Assembly (NCBI GenBank): GCA_903834765.1
Contig: CAILKE010000035.1
Location: forward strand, 1 to 38,545
Direction: 5' to 3'
DNA from: an uncultured Bacteroidota bacterium
Lineage (GTDB): Bacteria; Bacteroidota; Bacteroidia; B-17B0; Aurantibacillaceae
Length of the DNA stretch: 38,545 nucleotides
Part shown: one piece after another, positions 20,112 through 37,329 of the stretch
How positions within the stretch are numbered: position 1 is the first letter of the stretch
Layout of the letters: each line of letters begins with the position of its first letter
Program-made: the position numbers and the translations under genes
The notes under the pieces: generated by a model
What the model was told of the DNA's origin: nothing
Database searches by the model: none
Seen by the model: only the letters and a program-made list of their open reading frames with translations

Positions 20112-20825
20112 TTAATAAAGATTAAGCAAAAGACCATTAATGTTGTTACCTATTAAGGCTTTAATAGAATTCATGCTGCGCGAAACAGGATGATCGGTAA
20201 TTACGAATAGCGTTTTGCGATTTTTGTAATAAAGCATAGGCAAAGCGGGGTGCTGAGAAAACATAATATTATGTCCGGCTACATTATTAATAATTTCTAT
20301 CCATTCATTTAAATAGGCTTTGCTATAAAAAAGAACTACTTTGGGCTGATATTTAATTAGTTGATTTACTAAAAGAATTATCCTCATAGCCTTAATTCGT
20401 TTAATATAATCCACCTTACTTTCTTTGTTGTGTGAGTCCCAATTCAAATCAGCTAAACTTTTACTAGAATAGGGTAAAAGCTCAACAACACAAGTATTAG
20501 ATGTATCTCTTCCAAATTCTGTTGATTGTATTTGCCGCTTTCGATTAATAGAATATTCTTCGCCCCGCATAGCTATTAAAATTTCAATGAGGCCGGCCCA
20601 AGTACTTTGTAATTTTATGGGTTTGTCAAAAAAACGAATCGTTCCGTTCCCAAACAATTTATGGAATTCATAAATATCAGCATAATGCTCTGCCTTAAGT
20701 TCTTCCCATATTTTCATTCTTAAATCAATCGATTCAATACTGCCCCCCTCTTCTGGCCCAACAAACCAGTAATCTCCATTAGGGTTTCCATAACCTAATT
20801 TCGAATTTTCAAATTGATTATTCAT
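20112..20825 (-). CDS. Probable uracil-DNA glycosylase-fold protein (left operon)
   Basis: A 237-residue protein. GYGNPNGDYWFVGPEEGG at residues 11-28 strongly resembles motif I of the uracil-DNA glycosylase superfamily (glycine-rich GExPG loop after a strand), with Glu24/Glu25 in the catalytic position. VVELLPYSS near 113 fits the conserved strand after it, KVVLFYSKAYLNEW near 162 fits the next, and ITDHPVSRSMN near 209 fits the C-terminal HPS motif. Residues of the true enzymes that recognise uracil are not evident, so it may act on another base or have no glycosylase activity. It is the last gene of the left operon, 12 bases after the small membrane gene. The right operon ends with a different protein of probably the same fold. 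Confidence 0.6.
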   Translation of the reverse strand: MNNQFENSKLGYGNPNGDYWFVGPEEGGSIESIDLRMKIWEELKAEHYADIYEFHKLFGNGTIRFFDKPIKLQSTWAGLIEILIAMRGEEYSINRKRQIQSTEFGRDTSNTCVVELLPYSSKSLADLNWDSHNKESKVDYIKRIKAMRIILLVNQLIKYQPKVVLFYSKAYLNEWIEIINNVAGHNIMFSQHPALPMLYYKNRKTLFVITDHPVSRSMNSIKALIGNNINGLLLNLY

Positions 20826-20837
20826 ATTCTTTGCTAT

Positions 20838-21092
20838 TTATTTTACTCCAAAAAAACTTATCACTAATTGACCAACAATTAAAAAAACCCAAAAAGCTAC
20901 TCCGCCTGCCATCCCTAGTTTTACTAATAAAACAGAGAAACCACTTTTTGACCAATGATCACGTGGTGGAATAAAAAACTCAGAAACTAACCAGGTTATT
21001 ATAAAGGCAATTAATGCTATAATTAAAGAAACAATAATAGCAACGTAACCTACAATTTTTGATGAAAGAATTAAAAGAGAAAGTATGATCAT
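20838..21092 (-). CDS. Small two-to-three-helix membrane protein (left operon)
   Basis: An 84-residue protein of unknown function: two adjoining hydrophobic helices at about residues 3-40, a short charged loop (PPRDHWSKSG), then a third hydrophobic stretch to the C-terminus. The C-terminal KSGFSVLLVKLGMAGGVAFW is loosely similar to a stretch of the small membrane protein at 33889-34083 in the right operon (DGFGLKLIKTVGVAGVI). Both lie directly upstream of a probable UDG-fold gene, so they may be positional equivalents. 11 bases separate it from the coiled-coil gene. Confidence 0.7.
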   Translation of the reverse strand: MIILSLLILSSKIVGYVAIIVSLIIALIAFIITWLVSEFFIPPRDHWSKSGFSVLLVKLGMAGGVAFWVFLIVGQLVISFFGVK

Positions 21093-21103
21093 TAAAAATA
21101 AAA

Positions 21104-21373
21104 TTAACCTTTAATGTTTTTAATGTTATTTTTTATATATTCAATTTGTTTTTTCTTTGCCTCAATTTGATTGACGTAATTATTAACGGCAGTAATTTTA
21201 CTTTGCCTATAACTCCGTTTTGAGTTTGGGTCTTTGGTGTTTTTTATATTGTTTGAATAATTATCAGCTGTTCTTTTTTTCTGATCTTTTAAATTTTGTA
21301 AATCTTTTCTATAGCCTTCTATCTGAACCTTGTAAGAAGCTATTTGATTTCTTTGCGATTGGGTTAAAGCCAT
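21104..21373 (-). CDS. Small coiled-coil protein (left operon)
   Basis: An 89-residue, Lys/Gln/Asn-rich protein with no hydrophobic segment and heptad-like spacing across residues 4-45 and 60-85, so two helices that could form a hairpin coiled coil. The ATG at 21373 (ALTQSQRNQ start) is chosen over an upstream start at 21418 because the added 15 residues are Cys/Arg-rich and unlike the rest. No family recognised. It lies directly downstream of the KAP NTPase gene and may be an accessory subunit; that is only inference from position. Confidence 0.65.
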   Translation of the reverse strand: MALTQSQRNQIASYKVQIEGYRKDLQNLKDQKKRTADNYSNNIKNTKDPNSKRSYRQSKITAVNNYVNQIEAKKKQIEYIKNNIKNIKG

Positions 21374-21447
21374 TGTTTTAATTTTTATACCTACTCTTAA
21401 ATTGGATTTTCGGCACACTCCATTTTATTATTGGGAACCGTTGAAAC

Positions 21448-23343
21448 TTATTTATCAGCTTCTAAATTGCTTTTAACAAGTTCAATAAGTAATTTACATT
21501 CATCACTAACAGTATTTACTAAGGCTTCCAATTTTTTACTATCCGCTAGTGTTGCCATACTCATGTCATCTAATTTCGAAAAATTTAATGGAGTGCTTCC
21601 AACTAAGATTGTTTTTGATAATACATCCCAAATCCCATTGCCTTTGTCATAACCGCTTTTACATATAGTATTGCGGACGTTTTGAAGAATAGCATTTTTC
21701 CCATGATTTTTTATGGTCGTTCCATCCCACGCTCTTAAACAAATATAAACACCTGTCCATGTAGCTTGACAAATATCTAATCTGTATTTTAAACTACTGA
21801 ACTTAGCATTATCAATAGGGATAGATAGTGAACAGATAATTATATTGGTGGTAGATTTTATAGGGAGCGCTTCTGTAACAATTAACTTTTCTCGCAATTT
21901 GGTAATTAGCAAATTAGAGAATGTTATACATAAGTTTATATTATCTTTTCTCGATATTTCAATTACTTTAGGTTTATCATTTGCCACCAAATTAGTAATA
22001 GCAGATTGCTCTAAAATAGATGCAACCACTTCGCCTAAATCACGATCTTCAGGAACTAATTCTTTTACTTTATTTAGCAATCTTGAAATTTGAAAAACTC
22101 TATTTTTTGAGTAAGTTTCTTTTTGACACATCCTAAATAAAACTTTCTCCCAAGGCTCATCAAATTCTGACGTAGAATTTAAGCGTGCTTGTTGTTCGGG
22201 TGTTAAACTTTCTAAATCTAATTTTAAAGCCGTTTCATCATTCCAATTAACAAAGTTTGAATCCTCAATTAATTTATTGTAAACATAAGGATATGCAATT
22301 TGCAAGCACACCATTGCAAAGCCTATTAATTTTTCGTTTTCAATTTCGTTTTGTTGCTCATCTCCATATTTATTAATGATGGTAATGAGAGAAAGTGTAT
22401 TTGTTAATCGCTTTAATGCACGAGGGTTTTGACCAACTGATAAACTAGCAAGTTCAGTTAAAGATTCTTTATATTGATCTTCTGTGGACTCTTCTTCTGT
22501 AATAAAACCAATATTTTTCAAAGCCTCAAGCAAATAAACGTCAATTGTATAACTTGCCACCGGCATTGAAAAAGGCATCTGAATAATTTTATCAAAAAAT
22601 GACCTAAACTCTCTTTCGTTTTGAGGCGTTAGTTTTCCGAATTTTGGCTCAAGTCCTTTTATGACTACATCATAATCAATGGCAAGTACAAAAATACATT
22701 TATCTAAATCAAATATATTTTTAAGTAATTCTAAAATTTGTACAGCAACCGGCGGATCTATTCTATCTAAATCATCAATAAAAAAAATAAAGCCTAACTT
22801 GTTTTTATCTTTACTCGTTTCAATAATTTCAGCAATCAGTTTTTCTATTTCCTTTTTCATACGGCTAATTTCTGCTCCTTCAGAACCTTCGCCATCAAAA
22901 AAAGCATCAACCCCATCAGGATTTAAACCAGCTTTATCAGCAATTTGTTTCGCTAAAAATTTACCACCAGCAAACGATATTTTTTTGAAAATTGATTTTA
23001 CATTTTCTACGGTTTTATTTTTTCCATCGTTATCCGATAGCGTTTTTAAAATCTGCTCAATCATGCCTTCCACTATTTTTAAAATAGCTTCTTCGGGAGT
23101 TCGCATGAGCGAGTATTGCCATGAATTAATCCAAACTCTATAAAAGGTACCTTTATCACACAACTCATCATCAAGCAAATTCATGAGTGATGTTTTACCG
23201 CTGCCCCACTCACCTTGTAAGGCAATGGTTAATGGGGTGTGTGAATGATTTACAAATTCAACCAAGGCGTTTTGATATTTTTGAATACCAAATAAATCAG
23301 CTTCGTTTTTTTTTCTTGGAATATCTATTACGCTTGATTTCAT
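21448..23343 (-). CDS. KAP-family P-loop NTPase (left operon, KAP1)
   Basis: A 631-residue KAP NTPase. Walker A is GEWGSGKTS at residues 44-52; WINSWQYS near 71-78 is the KAP signature after it; Walker B is FIFFIDDLDRID near 185-196; DYDVVIKGL and NEREFRSFFDKIIQMPF follow, then the SVGQNPRALKRLTNTL sensor region. Canonical KAPs often carry membrane helices inserted in the NTPase; I see none, so this one seems soluble. Residues 1 to about 460 are colinear with KAP2 at 31563-33323. After that it has a private domain of about 160 residues (ATWTGVYICLRAWDG, KSGYDKGNGIWDVL) that I do not recognise. It sits between the hemopexin/TerD-like and coiled-coil genes. Confidence 0.92.
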   Translation of the reverse strand: MKSSVIDIPRKKNEADLFGIQKYQNALVEFVNHSHTPLTIALQGEWGSGKTSLMNLLDDELCDKGTFYRVWINSWQYSLMRTPEEAILKIVEGMIEQILKTLSDNDGKNKTVENVKSIFKKISFAGGKFLAKQIADKAGLNPDGVDAFFDGEGSEGAEISRMKKEIEKLIAEIIETSKDKNKLGFIFFIDDLDRIDPPVAVQILELLKNIFDLDKCIFVLAIDYDVVIKGLEPKFGKLTPQNEREFRSFFDKIIQMPFSMPVASYTIDVYLLEALKNIGFITEEESTEDQYKESLTELASLSVGQNPRALKRLTNTLSLITIINKYGDEQQNEIENEKLIGFAMVCLQIAYPYVYNKLIEDSNFVNWNDETALKLDLESLTPEQQARLNSTSEFDEPWEKVLFRMCQKETYSKNRVFQISRLLNKVKELVPEDRDLGEVVASILEQSAITNLVANDKPKVIEISRKDNINLCITFSNLLITKLREKLIVTEALPIKSTTNIIICSLSIPIDNAKFSSLKYRLDICQATWTGVYICLRAWDGTTIKNHGKNAILQNVRNTICKSGYDKGNGIWDVLSKTILVGSTPLNFSKLDDMSMATLADSKKLEALVNTVSDECKLLIELVKSNLEADK

Positions 23344-23395: not shown

Positions 23396-24541
23396 TTAGA
23401 CTAATTTAGAAAGTATGTTTTTTGAATCTGAACCATCCCTTTTAAAATATGTTGACATATTTTTTATAGTATATTTACCATCATTGTTAGAATAAATTTT
23501 CGCAATACACGCAGCATCTTTGCCTGTTTCCTTTTCTAAATATGTGGACACAGAATTACCATTATTATCTAAAATAGTAATATTTACGTCAGCATCATCA
23601 AAAACACCTGTGCCACCTTCATTTGAATAATCCCAGCAAATAAGATAAATCTCGGAGAATACATCTAGTTTTGCAATTGTTATTATTTCCTCTTTTTGTG
23701 CATTACCGCCATACATTTGGTCACGATCAAGCTTAATGAAAGGGGATTTAGAAAGCTCACCTTTATTACCAAAATATATTGTACCTGTTTCGCCTGTTTT
23801 CATTTTATATACAGCGGCTAAATCAAAATCAACATCTTTAAACCAACGCAATTTAACACTCAAATTAAAAAGTGAAGGAAGATTAGCCGTTTCGTCTTTC
23901 TTTTTTAACACATTAGAAGTTGCATTAATTGCATCAGCTAATCCAGGCCAAGTATTATCTGTTATTTTCATTGGATATCCACTATCTACTTTATTTTTTA
24001 TTAAATCAAACCGCATATAGGAATCTCCTTTAAAAAAGTATATTTTATTTTCAAGTCCATTCCCGTGCCAATTTACAACAGCATCAATTCCATCTTCCCA
24101 AATTCCAGGAAAATAATGTTGTATTGGTTTTGGCCCTTCAAAACCTGCTCCATTTTCATTTTTTTTACCTGGTATAATGCATTCTTTTCCTTTAAAGAAA
24201 TAGGCGGTTTCGCCAATTGTAATACAAGCATCTATTTTATTATCCCAAAGATTTTTCCAATTACCTTTAATAGATTTAGGATACCCGGCGGTAACTTTTT
24301 TAGTTTTAATAGTACTTCTGATAAAACTATCATCCTTAAAAAAATAACAAACACCATTAGGTAACTGACATGCTGCATCTGCGGCTTTATCATATAAGCC
24401 TTTCCACTCAGCATCAATTGCAATAGGGTAACCGGGAGAAACTTTATTTGTTTTTTCATCATAAGAAATTACTTTTTCTCCAACAAAAAAATAAACTTTT
24501 CCGTCATTTGCATTCAGCGCACAATTAATTTTTATACTCAT
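23396..24541 (-). CDS. Hemopexin-repeat / TerD-like fusion protein
   Basis: A 381-residue protein with two parts. Residues about 6-205 are four repeats of the hemopexin type, each with a strand ending YFF, a helix-like segment, GYPxxI and W(K/P)GL followed by IDA, which would form a four-bladed propeller. Residues about 225-368 resemble TerD/CABP: LRWFKDVDFDLAAVY, GNKGELSKSPFIKLDRDQMYGG, EIITIAKL, FDDADVNITILD and YTIKNMSTYF follow the TerD order, with the acidic Ca-binding positions partly kept (DVDFD, DRD). TerD proteins bind calcium and act in chemical-stress, phage and colicin resistance systems. I see no signal peptide, so it should be cytosolic although hemopexin repeats are usually extracellular. 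53 bases before KAP1. Confidence 0.75.
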   Translation of the reverse strand: MSIKINCALNANDGKVYFFVGEKVISYDEKTNKVSPGYPIAIDAEWKGLYDKAADAACQLPNGVCYFFKDDSFIRSTIKTKKVTAGYPKSIKGNWKNLWDNKIDACITIGETAYFFKGKECIIPGKKNENGAGFEGPKPIQHYFPGIWEDGIDAVVNWHGNGLENKIYFFKGDSYMRFDLIKNKVDSGYPMKITDNTWPGLADAINATSNVLKKKDETANLPSLFNLSVKLRWFKDVDFDLAAVYKMKTGETGTIYFGNKGELSKSPFIKLDRDQMYGGNAQKEEIITIAKLDVFSEIYLICWDYSNEGGTGVFDDADVNITILDNNGNSVSTYLEKETGKDAACIAKIYSNNDGKYTIKNMSTYFKRDGSDSKNILSKLV

Positions 24542-24624: not shown

Positions 24625-25155
24625 TTAAAAGCCATAAGCTGATTTAAAGAACGACATAGGTTTAAAAAAAAAGCCAAAATAAATAAGGCCCAGTAATACA
24701 AAAATTAAAATAATTACTTTAAGTGTTTTTGATGCAAAGTGTCTTTTGTTTAATTTATTTAATTCAGTTTCATAGTAATCTGCTAAAACAGTTTCATCTA
24801 CTCTGCGCAACCTTACAATGCCTGAACGGATTTTTACTTTAAATATTTCCGGATCCATTTGTGATTTAAATGTATTTTGAGCTTCTACCAATAAATCATC
24901 TAATTGCACTGTTATTTCATCAATATCTTTCGATACAAAATCTATATTTCGTGCATTTTCCGTTGTAATATTTTGTATATCCCTATATTCAGATGAATTG
25001 GTTTTATGACTAGCTTCATCACTATTGTTTTCCTTTTCAATAATAATTTTATGGGGTGTTGACCAACCGCTTCCAAAAACTTTGTTGCTTGTCCATTTGC
25101 CAGTATTTTTGCCTGTCTCTCGCCAAAAGCTACTCCAGAAACTACCTTTAGCCAT
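24625..25155 (-). CDS. C-terminally membrane-anchored protein of unknown function (left operon)
   Basis: A 176-residue protein. The N-terminal 28 residues (AKGSFWSSFWRETGKNTGKW) are Gly/Ser/Trp-rich and amphipathic. The middle (about 55-130) is acidic and helical, with a likely coiled coil around NITTENARNIDFVSKDIDEI. A single hydrophobic helix lies near residues 143-162 (VIILIFVLLGLIYFGFFF), followed by a short tail, giving a tail-anchor-like topology with a cytosolic body. I do not recognise a family. It is transcribed just after a MITE-like element inserted in the operon, and is separated from the next gene by the repeated leader stem-loop. Confidence 0.7.
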   Translation of the reverse strand: MAKGSFWSSFWRETGKNTGKWTSNKVFGSGWSTPHKIIIEKENNSDEASHKTNSSEYRDIQNITTENARNIDFVSKDIDEITVQLDDLLVEAQNTFKSQMDPEIFKVKIRSGIVRLRRVDETVLADYYETELNKLNKRHFASKTLKVIILIFVLLGLIYFGFFFKPMSFFKSAYGF

Positions 25156-25387: not shown

Positions 25388-25795
25388 TTACTTTTTTACC
25401 GTATTAGAATCTTTTAACCAACCCTCTTGCTCTCCTTTACGATTTAGCGCTGATAAACTTAAATTGTCAGTTATCGCACCTGTAAAACACCAAGTCCCAT
25501 CTGACTTTATATACTCTACAGAAGCAAGAACACCATGATCATCCCAAAAAATTCTTTCCAAACTTTTAACCTTTAAATTGCCTCTAATAATTAAATCTGG
25601 CCCATTTTTTTGTCTTACTTCAGAAACATTTTTCTGCAAAAATTCTTCAAAGTAATATGGCTTTGCTGTACCTGCATCAAATAGAGCCTTTTTCTCTGAT
25701 GGATAAAAGCGAAGTCTTAAATATGGAAATGCTTCCCAAAATTCTCCGGCAACACTAGATAATTTTTTATTTCCTGTAAATGTTATATCTGCCAT
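25388..25795 (-). CDS. Small adaptor-like protein, family of three in the island (copy B)
   Basis: A 135-residue protein, homologous to the products at 26029-26394 and 28390-28770. Shared features: a start of ADITFTGNKKLSSV type, then an FPYLRLRF strand; in the middle I(I/V)RGNLKVKSLE; near the end a strand ending in W-FTGA and an L--LN helix. It looks like two copies of one alpha/beta unit (G-x-kkv..F at both residue 8 and residue 71). No catalytic motif is visible. The family always appears here next to tiny basic proteins at the head of the operons, so an adaptor or recruitment role is possible. That role is inference; I do not recognise a named family. Confidence 0.75.
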   Translation of the reverse strand: MADITFTGNKKLSSVAGEFWEAFPYLRLRFYPSEKKALFDAGTAKPYYFEEFLQKNVSEVRQKNGPDLIIRGNLKVKSLERIFWDDHGVLASVEYIKSDGTWCFTGAITDNLSLSALNRKGEQEGWLKDSNTVKK

Positions 25796-26028: not shown

Positions 26029-26394
26029 TTACTTAAACCACTCAGGATGAGCAGTCATAATTTCAACACCACCTTTTTCTTTTGCAAAAGCATTAAATTC
26101 ATTTAATGTTAAAGCATTGTGTTCTCCTAAGGAACGGTATTTTCTACCATTTTTTTCATAACACAATTCAACCGTTGCGCCATAGGCATCTTTATGTCTT
26201 GCCTCAAAAGTTCCAACATTCATTCCTGCATTTGTGCTCAATTCTGCTGCGTCTTTTTTTGTTCTTACGCTTGCATGAGTTACATTCCACATTGGATGTT
26301 CTACAAATCGAATGTACACATAAGGAAATTTTGCCAACCATTCTTTATTAATAGTTGCAAGGGTTTTGTTACCAGTAAATTTAATGTCTGCCAT
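26029..26394 (-). CDS. Small adaptor-like protein, family of three in the island (copy A)
   Basis: First gene of the left operon: 121 residues from the ATG at 26394, which aligns its start (ADIKFTGNKTLATI) with copy B. An in-frame start at 26427 would add 11 residues absent from the paralogues. Shared blocks: FPYVYIRF, the middle NVGTFEARHKDAYG (compare NIGTFEKRFKEIFS in copy C), a strand YEKNGRKYRSLG, and a terminal LTLNEFN helix followed by a Gly/Val-rich end. No enzymatic residues stand out. The leader contains the repeated stem-loop at 26450-26479 and the 14-bp putative operator at 26525-26538. Confidence 0.75.
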   Translation of the reverse strand: MADIKFTGNKTLATINKEWLAKFPYVYIRFVEHPMWNVTHASVRTKKDAAELSTNAGMNVGTFEARHKDAYGATVELCYEKNGRKYRSLGEHNALTLNEFNAFAKEKGGVEIMTAHPEWFK

Positions 26395-26449
26395 AATTTT
26401 AGTAAATAAATAATTTTTCTTACTCATAAGGCTTTTCAGTTACGCCTCG

Positions 26450-26479
26450 TTTTTTAAAGTGGTGTCTGAACTCCACTTA
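26450..26479 (-). promoter_or_regulatory. Repeated leader stem-loop, copy upstream of the left operon
   Basis: TTTTTTAAAGTGGTGTCTGA and the following CTCCACTTA pair as AAGTGG (26457-26462) with CCACTT (26473-26478). The 30-bp block matches 24582-24611 at 23 positions. It lies in the 5' leader of the first gene of the left operon. Confidence 0.45.
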
Positions 26480-26524
26480 CATTTAATAAATATCAAAAGT
26501 TAAACTTAAAATATCAAGTTCAAC

Positions 26525-26790: not shown

Positions 26791-27891
26791 ATGCCTAAAC
26801 CTAAGTACAAATTATCGCCTTATTTAAAAAATGGTTTGTATTGGAAAGTAATTGAAACCATAGCTTTTCCAATTTATACAAAAGCAGATTGCAGAAAGGT
26901 TTGTGAGCTGTTTAAGCTAAAAGGATTGCCTGTATTATCAGAAAGCACACTATACAGGTTGTTTTTAATAGATGGAAACGACAACGTGCCTTATTTACAA
27001 ACGTTAGATATTTTAGCTAAATTTTGTAATTACAAAGATTGGCATAGTTTAGAAAAGCATTTAAACGAACTATCAACATTTGAATGGTCTTTTGGAAAAG
27101 TGCCCACCAAAAATACGAATACAATAAGCTTACTAACCTCTTGTATACATCATAATGAATTGAAATCAGTTTATAATTTTTCAGAGCAATTTGATGAAAG
27201 TCTTGAATTAGAAAAAAAAGGACTGCTTGGCGAAGAATTTTATAAGGCGCTAAAAACAAATCCAAACAAAAACGACTTGTTCTTTAAAAATTTTTCAAAG
27301 TTACCCATAGTTAGAGAATCGTTTTTTGAATATATGGCTGATCCAACTTTTAAAATTCCTAATTACGAAATTGGATTAAAATACTATTTGCTAGGTATAA
27401 AGCCTGAGCAATCAACAAAATCATTACAAGATTTTATTTTTGGAAATTGTTTATTGTTTAGATATTATTATTTGAATAACGATAAATCAGAGTCCAAGAA
27501 ATTAGGCACAAAATTATATGAAACGTATAATTTTTCATCGAAGGATTTATCGCCAATACACATCTTTCCTAAGATACGCTATTTGGCTTATAAGTTGTTT
27601 TATTTAAATGTTATAGGCTCGAGCTTAGAAATAGAAAAATATGAAGTTTGGTTGTTAAATTATATTTCAAAAATTATTCAAAAGCTTACGTTGGAAGAAA
27701 AAAGGATTGTGCTCTATACTATAGCTGATGCATTTGTAAATAATGTAAGCACTAAAATGGATATGCATAATCAATTAAAACTAATTTTTAGTGATGTTTT
27801 AAACACATTACCAGCTTTTGTAAGTGAAGCTTCACTAAAGGATGCGCTGCCATACTTGAACAGAAATGCTACTAAACTCTTGAAAATATAG
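26791..27891 (+). CDS. Putative transcriptional regulator / sensor (paralogue 1)
   Basis: A 366-residue cytosolic protein. The first 90 residues hold DCRKVCELF, SESTLYRLF, TLDILAKFCNY and WHSLEKH; this pattern (S..TL.RLF, then T..L.-.C.Y..W..F) occurs in Bacteroidota proteins and looks like an unusual helix-turn-helix. The remaining 270 residues are all-helical and Leu/Tyr/Lys-rich, as in a TPR-like ligand or partner domain. It shares both the N-terminal pattern and overall shape with the product at 36055-37329, so the two are paralogues that flank the right operon. DNA binding is inferred. Placement between the two operons, in a region carrying the shared 14-bp motif, supports a regulatory role. 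Confidence 0.6.
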   Translation: MPKPKYKLSPYLKNGLYWKVIETIAFPIYTKADCRKVCELFKLKGLPVLSESTLYRLFLIDGNDNVPYLQTLDILAKFCNYKDWHSLEKHLNELSTFEWSFGKVPTKNTNTISLLTSCIHHNELKSVYNFSEQFDESLELEKKGLLGEEFYKALKTNPNKNDLFFKNFSKLPIVRESFFEYMADPTFKIPNYEIGLKYYLLGIKPEQSTKSLQDFIFGNCLLFRYYYLNNDKSESKKLGTKLYETYNFSSKDLSPIHIFPKIRYLAYKLFYLNVIGSSLEIEKYEVWLLNYISKIIQKLTLEEKRIVLYTIADAFVNNVSTKMDMHNQLKLIFSDVLNTLPAFVSEASLKDALPYLNRNATKLLKI

Positions 27892-29764: not shown

Positions 29765-30889
29765 ATGAAAGTATTAGATAGCTTAACTGAAAAAGAAAAG
29801 AGTGAATTAAAAACTGGCGTAATTGAAGTTACAGGAAAGGCGATGAATAGAACTGCTTTAGGAGTAGTTGATGCTTTAATGCAACTATATCCTAAAGCAA
29901 CTTTTGATGAGTTAAAGCAGATGCTGCCAGATACAATTAATACTGCTGCACCTAAAAATTACAAATCTTTATTTAAACCATATTCCGAAAGATTATATGG
30001 TGTTATACAACCAGGAAGCATCAAAACAGAATGTCAGGACCAGGGTTTAGATGTTAGTGCTTCTCATTTTATTAAGCCTGAAGAAACATTTAAAACATTT
30101 GATGGAGTTGAGGTTTTGGTTTCTAAATCGTGGGAATCTGCCGATACATCAACCGGTGAAAATGATTTACAAAACTTGATTAACCACGTTTCACAATATG
30201 GCGTTAAAGTTACAAAAGTTGAAAAAAAAGAAGCTTTTAATAAGGGCGAATATAACTTAGAAATTATTAACCCTATTTTATATAAACAATTAACAAATCC
30301 TGAGGAAAAGAAAAAGTTTCCGTGGTGGATTCTTATTTTAATAGCACTATTATTAGCCATATTGGCTTATTTTCTATTGGCTAAAAAAGCTACACCTGAA
30401 GTTATCCCAGCTCCACAAGCTGCAGTAATTACTCCAACTATAGCGCCAGTGGTAGCAAAAAACCCCGAAGTACAACCAGAAATTGATACGATTACCTCTA
30501 TAAAAAATGCGATAGCCGCAGGTGCAAATACAGAAAACAGATCTGTTAATTTCAATGATATTCTATTTAAATATGATAGCGATTCAATTTTAACCGAGTC
30601 AAATGCATCATTAAACGAAGCTTATTCCTTTTTAAATGAAATCCCTAAGTTGAAAGTTAAAATAGTTGGACATACAAGTAACGAGGGAAAAGCAAAGTAT
30701 AATGAGAAATTATCTAAAAAAAGAGCAGTTGCTGTTTTAAACTATTTAATAGGAAAAGGTATTGCTGAAGATAGAATGGTTGCGGAAGGCAAAGGAAGTG
30801 TGGAGCCGGTTGTTGATAATGATACAGAAGAAAACAAGCAAAAAAATAGAAGAATACAATTTATTATAACTGCTGATGGAAATAAATAA
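29765..30889 (+). CDS. Inner-membrane OmpA-domain protein with a cytosolic N-terminal domain
   Basis: A 374-residue protein. Residues 1 to about 170 form a cytosolic domain that I do not recognise (ALGVVDALMQLYPKATFDEL, LPDTINTAAPKNYKSLFKPY, ETFKTFDGVEVLVSKSWES). A single helix (186-206, WWILILIALLLAILAYFLLA) is followed by a Pro/Ala-rich linker and an OmpA/MotB peptidoglycan-binding domain at about 261-370 with VNFNDILFKYDSDSI, VGHTSNEG, the LSKKRAVAVLNYL helix and NRRIQF. There is no signal peptide, so the helix is the anchor and the OmpA domain reaches the peptidoglycan. It could tie the operon's cytosolic machinery to the cell wall, as MotB and ZorB do in their systems; here that is an inference. 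Confidence 0.88.
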   Translation: MKVLDSLTEKEKSELKTGVIEVTGKAMNRTALGVVDALMQLYPKATFDELKQMLPDTINTAAPKNYKSLFKPYSERLYGVIQPGSIKTECQDQGLDVSASHFIKPEETFKTFDGVEVLVSKSWESADTSTGENDLQNLINHVSQYGVKVTKVEKKEAFNKGEYNLEIINPILYKQLTNPEEKKKFPWWILILIALLLAILAYFLLAKKATPEVIPAPQAAVITPTIAPVVAKNPEVQPEIDTITSIKNAIAAGANTENRSVNFNDILFKYDSDSILTESNASLNEAYSFLNEIPKLKVKIVGHTSNEGKAKYNEKLSKKRAVAVLNYLIGKGIAEDRMVAEGKGSVEPVVDNDTEENKQKNRRIQFIITADGNK

Positions 30890-30920
30890 TGCGTTTAAAG
30901 CAATATGAAATACTTTTAAA

Positions 30921-31535
30921 GTGGAATTTAACTCACAAATTGAGCAAATAAAAAATACATTAAAAGCTGTTTGTGTTTATGCTGGATTGTTACCTTCTAT
31001 AAAGGGGGTTTTTAAGGAAAAAGAAATACAACTTAAAGAAACAGTTTTAATACTTGAAGATGTAAAAAGTATAGCTCAATTTTTTACCGCGACAGCTTAT
31101 GAGGACATTGCAATTGACACAACTAAACAAATTGCAAAGTCAACAATAATGTCCGTTTTTAGTGCGGCAAAAACTGAACCTTCAAGATTTGTAATTCTTG
31201 CAAAAGGTAAATGTATGGCAGGCACAGACTTATCAAATATAAAAACAGAAGATATTGTTGTTAAAGATTCTTGCGCATCCATAACTATTCCAAAGCCAAA
31301 AATACTATCGACTATAGTTAATCCTTCTGATTTTGAAATTTACATTGATGATGGTAATTGGTCGAATGAGGAAGTAAAAGGGATAAAAGTTACTGCTATA
31401 AAACGAATTGAGCAATTAGCAATTAGTGATGAGTTATTAAAAAAAGCCTCCGAACGAACAAAATTATTATTAACTCAGTTTTTTAAATCAATAGGATTTA
31501 AGCAAGTAACAGTTATCGAACTGGAATTACAATAG
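30921..31535 (+). CDS. DUF4230 family protein, without a membrane anchor
   Basis: 204 residues from the GTG at 30921; no in-frame ATG precedes the conserved region, and an upstream stop (30906-30908) closes the frame. Residues about 40-204 follow the DUF4230 pattern: LEDVKSIAQFFTA, FVILAKGKCMAGTDLSNIKTEDI, ASITIPKPKILSTIVNPSDFEIY, then a helix and LLTQFFKSIGFKQVTV. DUF4230 proteins commonly start with a membrane helix; this one has only a mildly hydrophobic segment (about residues 13-24), so it may be cytosolic. The function of the family is unknown. It sits between the OmpA-domain and KAP2 genes, 31 and 27 bases from them. Confidence 0.8.
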   Translation: MEFNSQIEQIKNTLKAVCVYAGLLPSIKGVFKEKEIQLKETVLILEDVKSIAQFFTATAYEDIAIDTTKQIAKSTIMSVFSAAKTEPSRFVILAKGKCMAGTDLSNIKTEDIVVKDSCASITIPKPKILSTIVNPSDFEIYIDDGNWSNEEVKGIKVTAIKRIEQLAISDELLKKASERTKLLLTQFFKSIGFKQVTVIELELQ

Positions 31536-31562
31536 TTAATTGAACTAAATCATGATTTTATT

Positions 31563-33323
31563 ATGCATTCAAATATAATTGATAAACCTAGAAAAGAAGG
31601 CGCCGACGATTTACTTGGTGTAGATAAATATACAGATGCCTTAATTCAATTTATTGAGTCATGCCAAATGCCTACAACATTGGCTATTCAAGGAGAGTGG
31701 GGAAGTGGAAAAACCTCGTTATTAAACCAAATTCGCCATAGGCTTTGTGAATCAGTTTTAAATTCAAATGAAATTAATAATCAAAAGCCTTATTACGGTA
31801 TTTGGGTAAATACTTGGCAATACTCTTTAATGAAAAGTAAAGATGAAGCCTTGATTGCAATTATTGGTGGACTTACCAATGAAATATTAAACATCATAAA
31901 AAGCAAACACGAAACTAAAGCTACGGCAACAATAAATAAAGTAAAAGGTTTGTTTGGTAAACTTGCTAAGGTAGGTGCAAAAGCTGCTATCAGCACTGTT
32001 GGTATTGAATCAGATATTGTTGATTCATTAACCGAAAGTGATGAAGGTGAAGTAAGTTTAATGCAATTTAAAAAAGCATTACAAGATGCTATCGAACAAT
32101 GCTTAACAGAAGATAGAAAATCAGGAAATAATAATCGTGGGTTTATTTTTTTTATTGATGATTTAGATAGAATTGATCCGCCTGTTGCGGTTGAAATATT
32201 AGAATTAATTAAAAATATTTTTGAAGTTGAAAACTGCATTTTTATTTTAGCAATCGATTACGAAGTGGTTGTAAAAGGCTTGGTTCCAAAATTTGGCCCA
32301 CTTACAGAAAAGAATGAAAGAGAATTCCGTTCCTTTTTTGATAAAATAATTCAGTTACCGTTTTCAATGCCTATTGCAAATTATGATGTTGCAAAATTCC
32401 TTATTCACTCATTAAAAGATATAGGATATATTGATGATAGATTTGAAAAAGATGAGTCCCTAAAAGAGAAATTAACTGACTTAACTTTATTATCCGTTGG
32501 CACTAATCCAAGATCATTAAAACGACTTATAAATACATTATCACTTTTAAATATTATTGGGAAAATTGAGGAAGATTCTGAAAAACAAATTCATGAATTA
32601 TTTATTAATTATGCATTAGTCTGCATACAGATTGCATACCCTAAAATATATGAATTATTAACACAAGAGCCTTCTTATAGAGAATGGACTGAACAAACAG
32701 CTAAAAAATTAAGGTTGCCTGAGTTAAACGAATCACAAATAGTAGTTTTAAATAGCACCAACGAATTTGATGAAGAGTGGGAGAAGGTCCTTTTCAGAAA
32801 ATGCCAACAAGATCCTTATATGGCGTCAAGAGCATTTCAAATTTCTCAACTGTTAAATTATATTATAGAATTAGTACCAGAAAACTTAAATTTTACAGAA
32901 GAAATAACTCGTATAATAGGATTTAGTTCAGTAACAAGTGTTAATCTTGATCCTACTCCAAAGACAATAATAAAAGGGAATAAAGTTAGATTTGAAGGGT
33001 TTGCATCCTTAGAAGAAATGCTGAAATTGAATAAACATTCAGCAGATTATATTTCTAATCTTAAAACAATTCACGATAAAATAAAAGATGAATTTAAAGA
33101 TTTAATACAAATTAATTACACGCCAAATTTTGTAACATTTATATGTGTTTTTCCAAAAGGACGAAGTAAAACGTTTTTATTTATTAGGTTCAAAAAAAAT
33201 AATGTCATATTTGAGTTTGCAGGCCAAACAATCCCAATAAATCAATCTTCTGATTTTACATCTGAAGTTATGGGTAAACTAAAACTAGCCTTTAATAATT
33301 TATCTTCTAAGGAATTAAATTAG
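31563..33323 (+). CDS. KAP-family P-loop NTPase (right operon, KAP2)
   Basis: A 586-residue NTPase colinear with KAP1 of the left operon over about 460 residues. Walker A GEWGSGKTS at 44-52, WVNTWQYS at 81-88, Walker B FIFFIDDLDRID at 194-205, DYEVVVKGL, NEREFRSFFDKIIQLPF, SVGTNPRSLKRLINTL, and NEFDEEWEKVLFR. No membrane helix. The C-terminal 119 residues differ completely from KAP1 and instead match the second half of the TerB-like protein at 28960-29739. So the two KAP proteins share an engine but carry different output or recognition domains. It is preceded by DUF4230 and followed after 18 bases by a 56-residue gene. Confidence 0.92.
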   Translation: MHSNIIDKPRKEGADDLLGVDKYTDALIQFIESCQMPTTLAIQGEWGSGKTSLLNQIRHRLCESVLNSNEINNQKPYYGIWVNTWQYSLMKSKDEALIAIIGGLTNEILNIIKSKHETKATATINKVKGLFGKLAKVGAKAAISTVGIESDIVDSLTESDEGEVSLMQFKKALQDAIEQCLTEDRKSGNNNRGFIFFIDDLDRIDPPVAVEILELIKNIFEVENCIFILAIDYEVVVKGLVPKFGPLTEKNEREFRSFFDKIIQLPFSMPIANYDVAKFLIHSLKDIGYIDDRFEKDESLKEKLTDLTLLSVGTNPRSLKRLINTLSLLNIIGKIEEDSEKQIHELFINYALVCIQIAYPKIYELLTQEPSYREWTEQTAKKLRLPELNESQIVVLNSTNEFDEEWEKVLFRKCQQDPYMASRAFQISQLLNYIIELVPENLNFTEEITRIIGFSSVTSVNLDPTPKTIIKGNKVRFEGFASLEEMLKLNKHSADYISNLKTIHDKIKDEFKDLIQINYTPNFVTFICVFPKGRSKTFLFIRFKKNNVIFEFAGQTIPINQSSDFTSEVMGKLKLAFNNLSSKELN

Positions 33324-33341
33324 AATTAATACCATATTAAA

Positions 33342-33512
33342 ATGTTTGGATTTAAAGGAAAATACGGAGTTTCATTTTCTTGGAAAAGATTACTGGGAAT
33401 TAGCGGGATGCGTAATAGTATTGCTAAGCAAACCGGCATACCAACAACAAAAGGTGGCGTTGAAAGAAAAATAGGTAGAGGGATATTAAACTTAATATTT
33501 GGAAAAAAATGA
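33342..33512 (+). CDS. Small basic Gly/Lys-rich protein (56 aa)
   Basis: ATG at 33342 to TGA at 33510-33512; the stop overlaps the ATG of the next gene (ATGA). The product starts FGFKGKYGVSFSWKRLLGIS and continues with Arg/Lys/Gly-rich text (KQTGIPTTKGGVERKIGRGI), ending LIFGKK. The charge pattern and translational coupling support a real gene. The KRLLGI / GIPTT / IGRG arrangement seems familiar from small proteins of mobile or conflict loci, but I cannot name a family with certainty. Confidence 0.65.
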   Translation: MFGFKGKYGVSFSWKRLLGISGMRNSIAKQTGIPTTKGGVERKIGRGILNLIFGKK

Positions 33513-33841
33513 AAAATTCTCAAAGAGATTTAAATTCTAATTTTTCCATTAAATTGATTCTATTTTATTTCTTATCTTCTTTTTTTGGAGGCTTGTTGTT
33601 TAGCATATTATCGTATAGGTCTAGAAAGAAAGGGAACACAGGGCTTGGTTGGATTCTTTTATCAATAGTATTCATTGTTATTTTTAGCTACATATCATTT
33701 GCATTATATAAAACGTCGAGCGCATATCACGATGCATTTTGGTATTATTTAAGCTTAAGCACTTTTGCAACAAATAGCGCTGCCCTTTTTATTTTATTGA
33801 TATCAATTTTTTTAAATAGAAGTAATGGGATTAGTTCGTGA
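33509..33841 (+). CDS. Small four-helix membrane protein (right operon)
   Basis: A 110-residue protein with about three to four hydrophobic helices (residues about 13-32, 46-65, 78-100) separated by short basic loops (SYRSRKKGNTG). It overlaps the preceding stop by ATGA and ends over the next possible GTG start, so it is translationally coupled on both sides. No family recognised; it could form the membrane part of the operon's complex. Confidence 0.7.
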   Translation: MKNSQRDLNSNFSIKLILFYFLSSFFGGLLFSILSYRSRKKGNTGLGWILLSIVFIVIFSYISFALYKTSSAYHDAFWYYLSLSTFATNSAALFILLISIFLNRSNGISS

Positions 33842-33888
33842 ACTTTATGACGAAGAAATTCCTCTACCAAATACACATATTAAAAGTA

Positions 33889-34083: not shown

Positions 34084-34085
34084 TT

Positions 34086-34976
34086 ATGTTTTCATTTCAT
34101 AAAAATCATTCTCAATTAGAATGTTTAATTAATAATTATCTTATAGCTCCAAATGAATTAGGAGTAAATTTAGTGTATAATGAAATCTCAAATTATATAG
34201 ATAGTGGCGGAGCAACAAAAATTAATGCTGGATTTATTTCAAACTTAAAAGAACCCTTTAAATCATTATTACAACAAAATTTTAAAAACGTAACAACGGT
34301 TGCAATTGATTTCCCTATTTACTTTAAATCTAAAATAGAAACGAAAAAAACTATCATGGTTTGCGCCATGGATTCTTTTCCGCCAATTCCTAACAGCAGC
34401 TATTGGAATGATAAAAATTTTGACTTCAAAAAAAATATTGGATTTTGGGCACCGTTTAGTTTAATAGATAATTGGCATGCACCAGTTGGTTCAATGAAAA
34501 CAAACATTCCGTTTTTTAGAGTATTGTTAGAAGAGTACAACTTATATATTACTGATGTTTATAAAGTATTTTTTAGACTTGAAAATGATGGACAATTAGT
34601 AAATAGTAATACTATTTCAGATTATACAGAAATAAAAAACCAAGAAGGCACAAACATACATGGCTATTTACTTTCTAATGAAATCCAAATTATAGAACCA
34701 GACGCCATTGTAACCCTTGGAAATTCAGCAAGAAATAAATTACTTCATATTAATTATTTAATTAATAATGTTGAACAGCAATCGAAGGGATGGAGCAATG
34801 AACCGCAAATGTATAAGTGGAAAAACTCTATTCCTATTATTGCAATACCACACATATCGGGTGCTGCAAATGGAGCAAAATCAGCTATTTTAAATAATTC
34901 TAATTATTCAAACATTACAGGTAATTATCAAAATGAAAGACTAGCAAAAATAATTAAACTAAAAATTAATGAATAA
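34086..34976 (+). CDS. Probable uracil-DNA glycosylase-fold protein (right operon)
   Basis: A 296-residue protein. After an N-terminal region of about 88 residues come KKTIMVCAMDSFPPIP (Asp96 at the end of the strand, the position of the catalytic acidic residue in UDG motif I), ITDVYKVFFR (the next strand), PDAIVTLGNSARNKLL and IPIIAIPHISGAANGAK (the C-terminal His loop). The order strand-D-x-x-P, D-V, DxxVTLG, P-HxS resembles the UDG superfamily. The normal asparagine and HPS motif are not exact, so catalysis is uncertain. It begins 2 bases after the small membrane gene, and its end overlaps the DUF481-like gene by 8 bases. It is not closely similar to the left-operon protein, so the two are at most distant relatives. 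Confidence 0.5.
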   Translation: MFSFHKNHSQLECLINNYLIAPNELGVNLVYNEISNYIDSGGATKINAGFISNLKEPFKSLLQQNFKNVTTVAIDFPIYFKSKIETKKTIMVCAMDSFPPIPNSSYWNDKNFDFKKNIGFWAPFSLIDNWHAPVGSMKTNIPFFRVLLEEYNLYITDVYKVFFRLENDGQLVNSNTISDYTEIKNQEGTNIHGYLLSNEIQIIEPDAIVTLGNSARNKLLHINYLINNVEQQSKGWSNEPQMYKWKNSIPIIAIPHISGAANGAKSAILNNSNYSNITGNYQNERLAKIIKLKINE

Positions 34977-35790
34977 GAACGTAATTAATTTAATGGTGAA
35001 GCTTATGCCTTGTTTCTTGCTCTGTATAGGCATAAACACATTCTGTAACGCTCAGGTTTTAAATATAGATCGTGAAAATGAAACTGATACCGTGTTTCAT
35101 AAATTCAGAGCCTTTTGCACGTTTAGTTTTTCGAATCAAAAACAGAGAAAGAATTTAATAGATTTTACAAATACAAACGAAGCAGACTATTTTTTAAAAA
35201 ATAATTATATATTTATTTTTTTAAATCAAACAGATTTAGCGTTTAACGGTCCTATTGTTAATGAGAATAATGGTTTTTTTCAAGTTAGATTTAGAGATAA
35301 TGATAAAAGAAAAGTAAGTCCTGATGTTTTTACTCAATATCAATGGAACGGAATACAAGGTATGGAGTATAGAGCGTTAGCCGGCATAAATGCTAGATTT
35401 AAATGGTTAGAAAAAAGCAAATCAGATTTATATACATGCATTGGCGTTTTTTATGAAAACGAAAAATGGAATCCTTTTTTAGGTTCCTTTGCTTACAAAC
35501 AAGATTCGTTAAGCCTTGTGTATAGAAGTATGTTGCGTTTAAATGTAACAGCAAAGTTTGCCTTAAAATTAGGTAAATCGATTGATTATGTTGGATCGAG
35601 CTATTTACAATTCCCTTTAAATAATAATTTTACAAATCCGAGATGGGTATTTGATTCAAATCTTTATTTTGCAATAAATAAATATTTAAGTTTTAAAATT
35701 CATTTTGATAGCAATTTCGATAACTATCGTCCATTACCAATTGATAATTATTATTATTCGTTAACAACAGGCATACAAATAAAAATCTAG
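34969..35790 (+). CDS. DUF481-like outer-membrane beta-barrel protein (right operon)
   Basis: A 273-residue exported protein with a signal peptide (NLMVKLMPCFLLCIG to FCNAQ). The body is an alternation of polar and aromatic strands (YRALAGINARFKW, SDLYTCIGVFYEN, RSMLRLNVTAKFAL, NLYFAINKYLSFKIHF, YYYSLTTGIQIKI) ending in a Tyr/Ile-rich strand, typical of an outer-membrane barrel and resembling DUF481 (YdiY-like) proteins. The start ATG at 34969 overlaps the stop of the preceding gene by 8 bases, so it is translationally coupled to a DNA-repair-fold protein. That is an odd pairing, and it places an outer-membrane component in an otherwise cytosolic/inner-membrane system. Confidence 0.7.
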   Translation: MNKNVINLMVKLMPCFLLCIGINTFCNAQVLNIDRENETDTVFHKFRAFCTFSFSNQKQRKNLIDFTNTNEADYFLKNNYIFIFLNQTDLAFNGPIVNENNGFFQVRFRDNDKRKVSPDVFTQYQWNGIQGMEYRALAGINARFKWLEKSKSDLYTCIGVFYENEKWNPFLGSFAYKQDSLSLVYRSMLRLNVTAKFALKLGKSIDYVGSSYLQFPLNNNFTNPRWVFDSNLYFAINKYLSFKIHFDSNFDNYRPLPIDNYYYSLTTGIQIKI

Positions 35791-36054
35791 CTATATTTTG
35801 TTGCCAATAGAATTTTAGAATTCTTGATTTTATGCTCTTCGTCTTAATAATATTTTTATTACCCAGTTTCTATTTCCCAACCCACACAACCTAACACGTA
35901 TCATAACAGAATAAGCATATAGGTTTTTATTGAACGTTTGCAATATAAAACTAATACACTTTTACAATTTCCAAAAAATATTAGTCGGTATATTTATATA
36001 CTAATAGACCTTCGTATAAAAAATTAGCTTAATTTAGAAGTAGTTTATTTGTAT

Positions 36055-37329
36055 ATGCGAAAAATTTGTAACGAGCAGTTTGAACATTTGTATTTGCGTG
36101 AATTATCTTCACGTCTACAAAGGCATTTATTAATAGATGTAAAAGACTTTAATGATTGTAAAAATGCCTCTGAAAAATTAAGGAACCAAGGGCTTGTAAT
36201 TTCAGCACATACATTAGCTCGATTTTTTGGAATTTTAAAAAACAACCACAATCAATATACTTCTACACTTAATTTAATGTGCAAATTTATTGGTCTAGAT
36301 TCTTATGCTATTTTTTGTAAGGATATAAAACAAAGAACAGAAAACGCATTATTTAACCCGGTTGATACTTTTAAAACTAGCTCTTTTACATTAATAACAC
36401 TTGAAATTGCTTTAGCCAATAAGGATTGGAAAAGTGTTCAAGATATTGTAAACGATTTTAATATTAACGATCCATTAAAAAACGAATTGGTGATGTTGCT
36501 GGGTAAAAGTGTGAGGCATAACCAAAACAAACAGCTATTATTAAAGAAATTAATTGAAATAGAACAAGGTAGAATTTTGTTTTATGAAAGTTATGTTGAT
36601 GAAGATGATCCTCGTGGTTATTATTCACGCGCCCTAAAAAATTATTATAAGCCACGTTTTCCAAATTACAACAATCAACTCTTTCTTCAGTGTTTTATAA
36701 TGTCAAAAGCAATTTATCTAAATGAGGTTATTGATTTAACTTTATTAAATTCATCTGTTTTAAATTTAGATGTGCCTTTTAAAAAATTACATTTTCATGA
36801 AATTTCACGTTATTTAGAATTGCAAATTTTGCTCGATTTTAAAAAGGGCTTTTTAAAAAATAATTTACTTAATCATTTAGAACAAATTACAGAACTAACT
36901 GCAGGATATGTATATAATGATAAGTATACGTTAGAATTCCTCAATCATGATAGATGCTGGATTGTTGCCCGCAGTTTAAAAGCTTTAGCATTTGCAGGGT
37001 TTTTAAAAGACGCTTTAAAACAAGATAGTTTTAGATTACTTATTGAAGAACTTTATATTGGTTCTTTAAAAAATATTGGAAGCGTTGCTGAATTAATTAT
37101 TCAGTATGTTTTACACGCCATTAACAAGCAAAAAGCACATGATAATGATTATTTTCCTCCCAAACGCATTACTTCATTTTGGGATAACGAAACTAATTCT
37201 AGAATTGCAATTGAAGCAGCAACATCTTTGCTTTATGCAGAAGAAAAAATAAAACCTATCCTTGAAAAAAACGTGTATTCGTTTGCTAAAAAAACAGGCC
37301 ACACGTGGTTGTTCGAACTATTGAGCTAA
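36055..37329 (+). CDS. Putative transcriptional regulator / sensor (paralogue 2)
   Basis: 424 residues from the ATG at 36055; a TTG two codons upstream is less likely. The N-terminal part has DCKNASEKL, ISAHTLARFFGI, STLNLMCKFIG and YAIFCKD, the same order as paralogue 1 at 26791 (DCRKVCELF, SESTLYRLF, TLDILAKFCNY). The C-terminal 320 residues are all-helical and of unknown function. It sits after the right operon with its own 260-base upstream region, which lacks the 14-bp motif but has an inverted pair TATTAGT/ACTAATA at 35979-35985 and 36000-36006. Regulation by this protein is inferred from paralogy and position. Confidence 0.6.
   Translation: MRKICNEQFEHLYLRELSSRLQRHLLIDVKDFNDCKNASEKLRNQGLVISAHTLARFFGILKNNHNQYTSTLNLMCKFIGLDSYAIFCKDIKQRTENALFNPVDTFKTSSFTLITLEIALANKDWKSVQDIVNDFNINDPLKNELVMLLGKSVRHNQNKQLLLKKLIEIEQGRILFYESYVDEDDPRGYYSRALKNYYKPRFPNYNNQLFLQCFIMSKAIYLNEVIDLTLLNSSVLNLDVPFKKLHFHEISRYLELQILLDFKKGFLKNNLLNHLEQITELTAGYVYNDKYTLEFLNHDRCWIVARSLKALAFAGFLKDALKQDSFRLLIEELYIGSLKNIGSVAELIIQYVLHAINKQKAHDNDYFPPKRITSFWDNETNSRIAIEAATSLLYAEEKIKPILEKNVYSFAKKTGHTWLFELLS

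Follow-up and report, generated by a model that had tools for sequence, protein, structure and literature searches.

Two divergent KAP-NTPase operons in an uncultured Bacteroidota bacterium: possible members of a polymorphic, envelope-tethered conflict system

How much meaning should be read into two operons that lie back to back and appear to be built from the same kinds of parts? The question is raised by positions 20112–37329 of contig CAILKE010000035.1 (C35), from an uncultured bacterium of the Aurantibacillaceae (Bacteroidota; assembly GCA_903834765.1, 3.63 Mb). The whole contig, 38,545 nucleotides long, is the window analyzed here. A type IX sorting domain and the genome's relatives also point to Bacteroidota. 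An earlier note on this DNA had described a two-operon island with KAP NTPases, Ter-family proteins, an OmpA anchor and uracil-DNA glycosylase (UDG)-fold proteins, and had proposed one envelope-tethered conflict or DNA-damage response made of two diversified modules. We lean towards the view that the island comprises two stacked members of a polymorphic, envelope-tethered KAP-NTPase conflict system, most likely anti-phage, a function drawn from anatomy and neighborhood alone. The gene sets look like an undescribed modular self-defense kit whose connecting pieces are shuffled between genomes. Genes are numbered as in Table 1; L and G denote the loci and genomes compared, f the protein families.

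The two same-strand gene runs indeed diverge from a common center (26428–28389): operon 1 extends leftwards on the minus strand from 26427 to 20112, and operon 2 rightwards on the plus strand from 28390 to 35790. Eleven of the 15 intergenic gaps in both runs are shorter than 100 bp. The center contains a gene for a 366-aa regulator-like protein (g09, 26791–27891, plus strand), and another regulator-like gene, g19, stands at the right end. Leftwards from 26427 the order is g08 and g07 (both adaptor-like proteins of a family called SMALL here), g06, g05, KAP1, g03, g02, g01 and probably a symporter gene reaching to 18495. Rightwards from 28390 it is g10 (SMALL), g11, g12, g13, KAP2, g15, g16, g17 and g18. 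The order, said to be similar in both halves, is roughly parallel only.

Only some of the supposedly parallel parts are supported as homologous. Each half does have its KAP NTPase, with PF07693 scores of 150 bits (KAP1) and 133 bits (KAP2) against a cut-off of 20. The two are 47% identical over 477 aa (E 4e-148) and are the only PF07693 matches in the genome. Many KAP proteins carry membrane inserts in the NTPase domain, a trait not treated as defining here; none is seen in KAP1 or KAP2. Each half also has its adaptor-like protein, the SMALL paralogues g07 and g08 (minus strand) and g10 (plus strand) being homologous at E 8e-8 to 2e-13. The regulator-like g09 and g19 are related as well (E 2e-7, 28.7% identity over 171 aa). 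The ends of g11 and KAP2 share a module of 117 aa (34%, E 1e-20). By contrast, the tiny basic proteins of the two halves show no mutual similarity, nor do the small membrane proteins, and homology between their Ter-like proteins (TerB vs. a weak TerD-like domain) is unsupported. Comparison of g01 with g17 gives E 0.035. The description as two diversified modules is supported.

Does the pair act as one system? A scan seeded with four KAPs yielded at least 148 confirmed relatives. From these, 80 loci were retained; adding the window and four stretches (L095–L098) of two relatives gave a pool of 1,320 open reading frames (ORFs), with 83 loci that contain a family KAP and 86 KAPs in total. There is thus a wider family of KAP islands, mostly in Bacteroidota. 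Other genomes carry a large share of the same genes, so the arrangement is more than chance. The halves nevertheless part company. The operon-1 set occurs alone on an 8.9-kb contig of a metagenome-assembled genome (L064; KAP1 90% identical over 631 aa), together with SMALL, a g02-like membrane gene, a TerD-like gene and a g19-like regulator. Operon-2-like sets occur in L015, L016, L017 and L018, with no operon 1 in the stretches read. L015 has a regulator, SMALL, TerB, KAP2 (82%), g16 and a regulator; L017 has SMALL, the anchor (86%), a UDG-family gene (29%), a gene of f97 (an EcsC-type cluster), a KAP (66%), g15, g16 and g18. Since either half can be present without the other as its neighbor, the reading as a single paired response is rejected. 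KAP pairs recur in L044 and L022, so the stacking of modules is real, although not obligatory. Full-length KAP2 relatives are found in 3 of 87 genomes of the family, its own included, and any match in 8. In the eight genus relatives examined, the 7.6–16 kb that follow hemB downstream contain none of ten island queries (KAPs included; SMALL was no query), apart from a single OmpA-domain match (32% over 94 aa). G081, which belongs to these eight, has an operon-2-like set on other contigs. A degenerate DNA pattern had no match in the bacterium's own genome, which is uninformative.

What varies most within the family is the end of the KAP protein. BLAST divides the C-terminal tails of 84 KAPs into 21 sequence groups, and profiles weakly link groups 3 and 4 and groups 10 and 15. 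The tandem proteins L044_13 and L044_14 of a single locus have cores 91.5% identical over aligned columns (88% by BLAST) and unrelated tails, WDV in one and RAL in the other. Similar cores with different tails are also seen in L025/L028 (84%), L082/L025 (84%) and L033/L044 (81%). The tail modules, placed along with SMALL by iterated profiles, turn up elsewhere too. RAL (about 110–150 aa) forms 16 KAP tails, precedes the transmembrane (TM) segment and OmpA domain in g12 and its kin, and lies behind SMALL in L040/L042. CTM forms 14 KAP tails and occurs on TerB-like proteins (g11, L015, L098). WDV (about 65 aa) forms one KAP tail, also stands alone, is attached to a PD-(D/E)XK-type protein in L034 (Pfam 1e-5) and a leucine-rich repeat (LRR) protein in L059, and precedes SMALL in L029 and RAL anchors in L034 and L059. 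SMALL is carried by LRR proteins (L031, L059) and OmpA anchors (L025, L082), and was found on no KAP. The combinations include LRR-SMALL-WDV and SMALL-RAL-OmpA. Over all 83 loci, a RAL partner accompanies a RAL tail in 10 of 16 vs. 9 of 67 without that tail (p 1.5e-4), and a CTM partner a CTM tail in 2 of 14 vs. 0 of 69 (p 0.03), p-values that ignore kinship. The association suggests that a tail may be matched to the same module on a partner. The RAL model (pLDDT 78.5, pTM 0.76) is mixed alpha/beta and matches no known fold: Foldseek reaches E 0.27 at best, and VIA gives a single row (Z 2.8, root-mean-square deviation (rmsd) 3.2, 72 aligned).

The SMALL proteins are the other recurrent connecting piece. 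They are present in 28 of the 83 KAP loci, and 57 SMALL domains were counted across 29 loci. In 55 of 56 cases the SMALL ORF lies on the strand of the nearest KAP, at a median distance of 2.4 kb and a largest of 8.0 kb (flanks up to 10 kb). On the tree of KAP cores the SMALL label requires 15 changes vs. 24.3 in shuffles, with none of 500 as low; SMALL therefore partly follows KAP lineages. The three SMALL proteins of the window have no Pfam match. The AlphaFold2 model of g10 (pLDDT 84, pTM 0.76) consists of two beta-alpha-beta-alpha repeats. Its best scores against known folds (Foldseek E 0.19; VIA Z 4.5, rmsd 4.3, 76 aligned) are all below match level; many of the VIA rows (Z up to 4.5) are entries of the ubiquitin fold, with ubiquitin itself, ISG15 and NEDD8 among them, a hint that the predicted fold may be ubiquitin-like. 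Searches of PDB sequences with SMALL, RAL, KAP2, g01 and the C-terminal part of g05 gave nothing significant. A count of SMALL subtypes (14 of 16 multi-copy loci with at least two) was left unused, the regular expression behind it being crude and g08 seemingly misplaced. SMALL genes also stand by themselves: a solitary fourth homologue lies outside the island in the same genome (L112, G000:C79, 3443–3805), and solitary genes are found in other Bacteroidota genomes (among L113–L120). In L113 (2426–8948, G278:C74), SMALL and a RAL-like protein occur without a KAP, next to a LytTR response regulator, a tetratricopeptide repeat (TPR) histidine kinase and a TPR-LuxR protein.

The company that SMALL-bearing KAP loci keep can be compared with that of the other 55 (families by clustering, named from representatives). 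Enriched in the 28 SMALL loci are the coiled-coil-like family CC (f2; 16 vs. 3), DUF4230 (9 vs. 1), kinases (9 vs. 0), GIY-YIG (5 vs. 0), the TerB-like family f11 (6 vs. 0) and non-KAP RAL proteins (15 vs. 4); C15 peptidases are weakly so (5 vs. 2, p 0.04). The Pfam tally (122 of 134 selected ORFs; 25 of 41 families listed) gives Ion_trans 10, Peptidase_C15 5, Pkinase 5, GIY-YIG 4, TerB 4 and PvuRts1I/SRA 2, with one each of DUF2779, DUF1016/YhcG and Endonuclease_NS. Of 104 PADLOC families matched by the same ORFs, the 25 listed have five members each, presumably the five kinases. Genes for Ion_trans and the pyroglutamyl peptidase C15 (f9) are direct neighbors in L029, L059, L082, L093, L016 and L025. 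In L016 (5413–17130), two large MORN-repeat proteins stand beside a KAP2 homologue, and upstream lie an ion channel gene and, by clustering, a C15-type peptidase gene.

Two UDG-fold proteins had been predicted, one in each half, and only g17 of operon 2 qualifies. It scores 23.6 bits against PF03167 by hmmscan, just under the cut-off of 24.3, and 24.6 bits, over it, in the own-genome search. Its family f19 comprises g17 and members in L016, L017, L018 and L098; all four scanned members match PF03167 (the one in L098 was unscanned), that of L018 over the cut-off (28.9 bits) and those of L016 and L017 at 21.8 bits. Residues D96 and H256 of g17 are invariant in the four aligned members, at positions that we take to be the motif-1 acid and motif-2 histidine of UNG-type enzymes. 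Against PDB sequences g17 alone finds nothing significant (best GmaR, E 0.06); the f19 profile has three non-significant matches (E 0.3–0.5), two labeled UDG (4zbx/4zby) and one a hypothetical protein. By sequence, g17 is a UDG-superfamily protein, and it is a probable base-excision effector. For g01 a UDG assignment is not supported: it has two chance-level Pfam matches, no NCBIfam match, and an hhalign probability of 0.1% to the g17 family. Enzymes of the PvuRts1I-SRA family cut DNA containing hydroxymethylcytosine (hmC); L028 has a member and so, judged by clustering, does L039. The UDG-superfamily enzyme Brig1 removes alpha-glucosyl-hmC from DNA and protects against phages (PMC11078745). 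Because of these two precedents, modified phage DNA is by analogy a plausible target.

Of the Ter-family labels, TerB is nearly confirmed and TerD weakly supported. g11 reaches 21.2 bits against PF05099 (E 3.7e-4, cut-off 24.4), and a TerB-like gene in L023, a KAP/SMALL locus, passes with 26.7 bits; four of the 122 island ORFs match TerB at 1e-4 (best 5.6e-8). For g05, HMMER finds no match to PF02342 (TerD) at E 10. Comparing its C-terminal part by hhalign with two TerD proteins of the same genome gives P 0.19, and with a larger alignment P 0.001 (probability 20% over 133 columns). In a shuffle control it ranks 8th and 10th of 502 sequences, so HMMER lends TerD no support, and TerD in g05 is not accepted (distant kinship is possible). 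The same part is 47% identical to L064_07, whose N-terminal part differs. Elsewhere in the genome, a ter-type operon (L122, G000:C56, 625–2923) has two TerD genes followed by a gene for a membrane protein with, by eye, an OmpA-like end; the N-terminal part of this protein repeats the TerD N-terminal peptide xLNLNK, and it is possibly another peptidoglycan tether for Ter proteins.

How might such parts work together? The OmpA match of the predicted anchor g12 is secure (9e-22). Its single membrane segment (188–206) would leave OmpA on one side of the inner membrane and RAL on the other, presumably the cytoplasmic one. As such, g12 would link a complex in the cytoplasm to both the inner membrane and the peptidoglycan, and SMALL, TerB-CTM and the KAP tail might keep KAP, anchor and effector in one assembly. 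The KAP ATPase would act as a switch, triggered by a sign of infection either at the envelope or on DNA, and would then release or load the effector. In operon 2 this may be g17, whose excision of bases (perhaps the modified ones of phages) would fragment invading DNA. In sister loci the role could fall to nucleases (GIY-YIG, PvuRts1I-SRA or PD-(D/E)XK), to ion channels paired with a C15 peptidase, or to kinases. Expression of each module would be set by the regulator-like genes. A bolder version, which we regard as unlikely, sees a programmable immune hub: the KAP core is fixed, its exchangeable tail serves as an address that effectors or anchors recognize through their own copy of that module, the tandem ubiquitin-like (beta-grasp-like) SMALL is a common scaffold, and tails and cargo are swapped as cassettes. 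If so, one ATPase would be re-aimed at glycosylase, nuclease, channel or kinase effectors. An odd pair of operons thus becomes a testable family in which KAP ATPases, already linked to phage immunity, are accompanied by a peptidoglycan-binding anchor and a range of effectors, and have tails that can be exchanged. If the reading is right, KAP proteins would be switchable hubs, TerB, DUF4230 and UDG-fold proteins would have a reason to be in Bacteroidota islands, and a natural toolkit of small adaptor modules would be at hand.

Alignable KAP cores with exchanged tails, recombined modules, variable cargo and patchy occurrence support the view of a polymorphic conflict system. The patchiness of KAP2 and the nuclease, channel and kinase neighbors in relatives likewise favor the envelope-tethered, conflict-type character that the earlier note had assigned to the island. 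Several observations weigh on the other side. The enrichment counts come from a KAP-seeded sample, 80 loci kept from at least 148 relatives, whose loci are not independent; in it UDG families are not enriched (2 of 28 SMALL loci vs. 3 of 55) and Ion_trans only weakly so (8 of 28 vs. 6 of 55, p 0.06). With 21 tail states, the tree of 84 cores needs no more than 24 changes, so most tail groups follow clades. Within SMALL loci the pairing of RAL tail and partner is non-significant (9 of 13 vs. 6 of 15, p 0.15), and the locus of the single WDV tail lacks a WDV partner (0 of 1 vs. 7 of 82). In a sample of the phylum SMALL matches 10 of 392 genomes, and in the nine others no family KAP is near SMALL, so SMALL is not tied to KAP; among these, G303 is borderline (8e-4) and missing from the ORF list, and in G456 the match is hidden there by the ORF filter. 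Weaker KAP matches exist in three of the nine, on other contigs or megabases away. In G002, a KAP2 homologue (75%) lies, by our reading of the sequence, directly downstream of a dnaJ-like gene (L095, 11623–13395, G002:C60), and the 38 kb read there contain none of the other island families. Collections of plasmids, phages and viral contigs gave no match, and mobility thus finds no support.

Could the target be something other than phages? In a response to envelope or genotoxic stress, the Ter-like, OmpA, membrane and UDG parts would sense and repair damage. UDG-fold proteins normally repair DNA, the TerB-like family f11 is confined to SMALL loci in the comparison above, the host has its separate ter-type operon with two TerD genes, and the outer-membrane-like families f4 and f15 recur. 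Yet PvuRts1I-SRA, GIY-YIG, PD-(D/E)XK and ion-channel cargo destroys rather than repairs, and patchy distribution and tail exchange suit an arms race better; we consider a stress response doubtful. It is less probable that two historically related KAP operons are chance neighbors, with KAP the sole real link and the rest defense-island clutter. The separate occurrence of the halves (L064; L015, L017), the several partners without similarity between them, and the lone KAP2 relative of G002 would fit, but SMALL and the regulator-like genes, and not KAP alone, are homologous across the halves, SMALL nearly always follows the strand of the nearest KAP, and KAP pairs recur in two other loci. We give least credence to inter-bacterial conflict or defense against predators at the envelope, where the anchor and outer-membrane-like proteins would sense an attacking cell instead of a phage. 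The OmpA anchor, the outer-membrane-like g18 and f15, and the membrane proteins agree with this, whereas the cargo is mostly nucleases, channels, kinases and peptidases, and the 25 of 41 cargo families listed include no secretion or toxin-export domain.

The features of the island are collected in Table 1. To its left lie genes for a phosphate transporter and an acyl-CoA dehydrogenase, and hemA, hemC and hemB; on the right the contig ends at 38545, which leaves the exact insertion site undefined there. The sodium:solute symporter gene next to g01 has relatives in KAP/SMALL loci (L030, 49% identical; L089, 31%). Because the L030 relative sits in another SMALL/KAP locus, the symporter gene may belong to operon 1, probably as its last gene, and the left limit of 20112 is then probably too narrow.

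Table 1. Genes of the two-operon island and the adjoining symporter gene, with positions in the window.
Feature	Position	Strand	Evidence
Sodium:solute symporter family gene	18495..20045	-	PF00474 4.5e-16; 66 bp from g01, same strand
g01, 237 aa	20112..20825	-	Homologue in KAP locus L024 (30%, E 8e-28); family assignment unproven
g02, small protein, 2-3 predicted membrane segments (hydropathy)	20838..21092	-	Homologues in KAP/SMALL loci L064 (62%), L073, L089
g03 (CC), small basic coiled-coil-like protein, 25 K+R vs. 7 D+E	21104..21418	-	Family f2
KAP1 NTPase, tail group 8	21448..23343	-	PF07693 1e-43
g05, hemopexin repeats (N-part) and TerD-like C-part	23396..24541	-	PF00045 5e-30, 3 stretches
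g06, 176 aa, single C-terminal membrane segment (hydropathy)	24625..25155	-	No family over cut-off
g07, SMALL adaptor-like protein	25388..25795	-	Homologous to g10, E 1.7e-10; SMALL profile
g08, SMALL adaptor-like protein, operon 1 gene 1	26029..26427	-	Homologous to g10, E 1.9e-13; 52% to L064 SMALL
g09, 366-aa regulator-like protein	26791..27891	+	40-44% homologues in operon-2-like loci L015, L016; no Pfam match; regulator role inferred
g10, SMALL adaptor-like protein, operon 2 gene 1	28390..28770	+	82% to L017, 63% to L015
g11, TerB-like N-part and C-terminal CTM module (residues 144-259)	28960..29739	+	PF05099 3.7e-4, below cut-off
g12, anchor: RAL (11-152, E 8e-32), membrane segment 188-206, OmpA	29765..30889	+	OmpA 9e-22; 86% to L017
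g13, DUF4230	30921..31535	+	PF14014 2e-23
KAP2 NTPase, CTM tail 470-585	31563..33323	+	PF07693 1.5e-38; 82% to L015, 81% to L016
g15, small protein, 3 membrane segments	33509..33841	+	Homologues in L017, G081 (36-37%)
g16, basic protein, one membrane segment	33838..34083	+	Homologues in L015-L019, G081
g17, UDG-superfamily protein, probable base-excision effector	34086..34976	+	PF03167 5.9e-5
g18, outer-membrane-like protein (DUF481-like)	34969..35790	+	7e-4, below cut-off; family f4 in 13 loci
g19, 426-aa regulator-like protein	36049..37329	+	56% to gene beside L064 operon 1; 40% to L015

Where does the island stand among known systems? One of its closest counterparts is the effector-associated domain (EAD) arrangement, in which an NTPase hub is served by multi-copy small adaptor domains fused to variable effectors (eLife 2020, PMC7159879; eLife 2021, PMC8195603). 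A hub and multi-copy adaptors, some of them effector-fused, are found here too (the 57 SMALL domains, with RAL, WDV and CTM). KAP is named as a substitute for STAND NTPases, in a case where the adaptors are N-terminal and an FGS domain is present (PMC8195603), and OmpA-type anchors are named for iSTAND systems (PMC7159879); KAP, TerB and EcsC do not occur in the latter. The island differs in several ways: the published KAP adaptor is N-terminal (PMC8195603) whereas the modules here are at the KAP C-terminus, no FGS match is found in the window proteins, and the EAD adaptor domains are alpha-helical, according to the abstract, whereas the RAL and SMALL models are mixed alpha/beta.

Like g12, which matches ZorB profiles at 8e-14, Zorya has a peptidoglycan-binding domain of the OmpA/MotB type that follows a membrane helix; a soluble effector acting on DNA is also common to both. 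Zorya defense requires ZorB to bind peptidoglycan, and the authors propose that this binding senses phage entry and leads to nuclease recruitment (PMC11890865). The island differs in having RAL across the membrane, and KAP would replace the motor. None of the 19 island proteins has a MotA/ExbB-type Pfam match, and ZorA is not among the PADLOC matches of 10 window proteins, which speaks against a Zorya system. PifA, QatABCD and PDC-S20 have the KAP core in common with the island: KAP1 and KAP2 match PADLOC PifA and PDC-S20 at 1e-30 to 2e-32, mostly within the KAP part. The score of KAP1 against QatA, 81.9 bits, falls far below the cut-off of 600 (KAP2 was outside that scan) and does not make the island a QatABCD system. 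The partners in Qat are QatB, QatC and QatD, and these are not among the matches of the 10 window proteins scanned.

Brig1 offers the likeness of a UDG-superfamily protein in a defense setting, and 4ZBY, named as its close structural homologue, recurs in the best, non-significant PDB match of the f19 profile (4zbx/4zby). Brig1 alone is enough for immunity (PMC11078745), whereas g17 sits in a KAP operon. The ter operons resemble the island in a TerB-like protein and a TerD-like part, the latter unproven; they differ in that the TerB-like protein of the island bears a C-terminal module common to KAP. In closing, no paper in the literature searched describes this gene set or the C-terminal exchange of KAP tails, although an earlier description is possible. 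It is in these two respects that the island is unmatched there; its kind is known, that of NTPase-centered, adaptor-based conflict systems.

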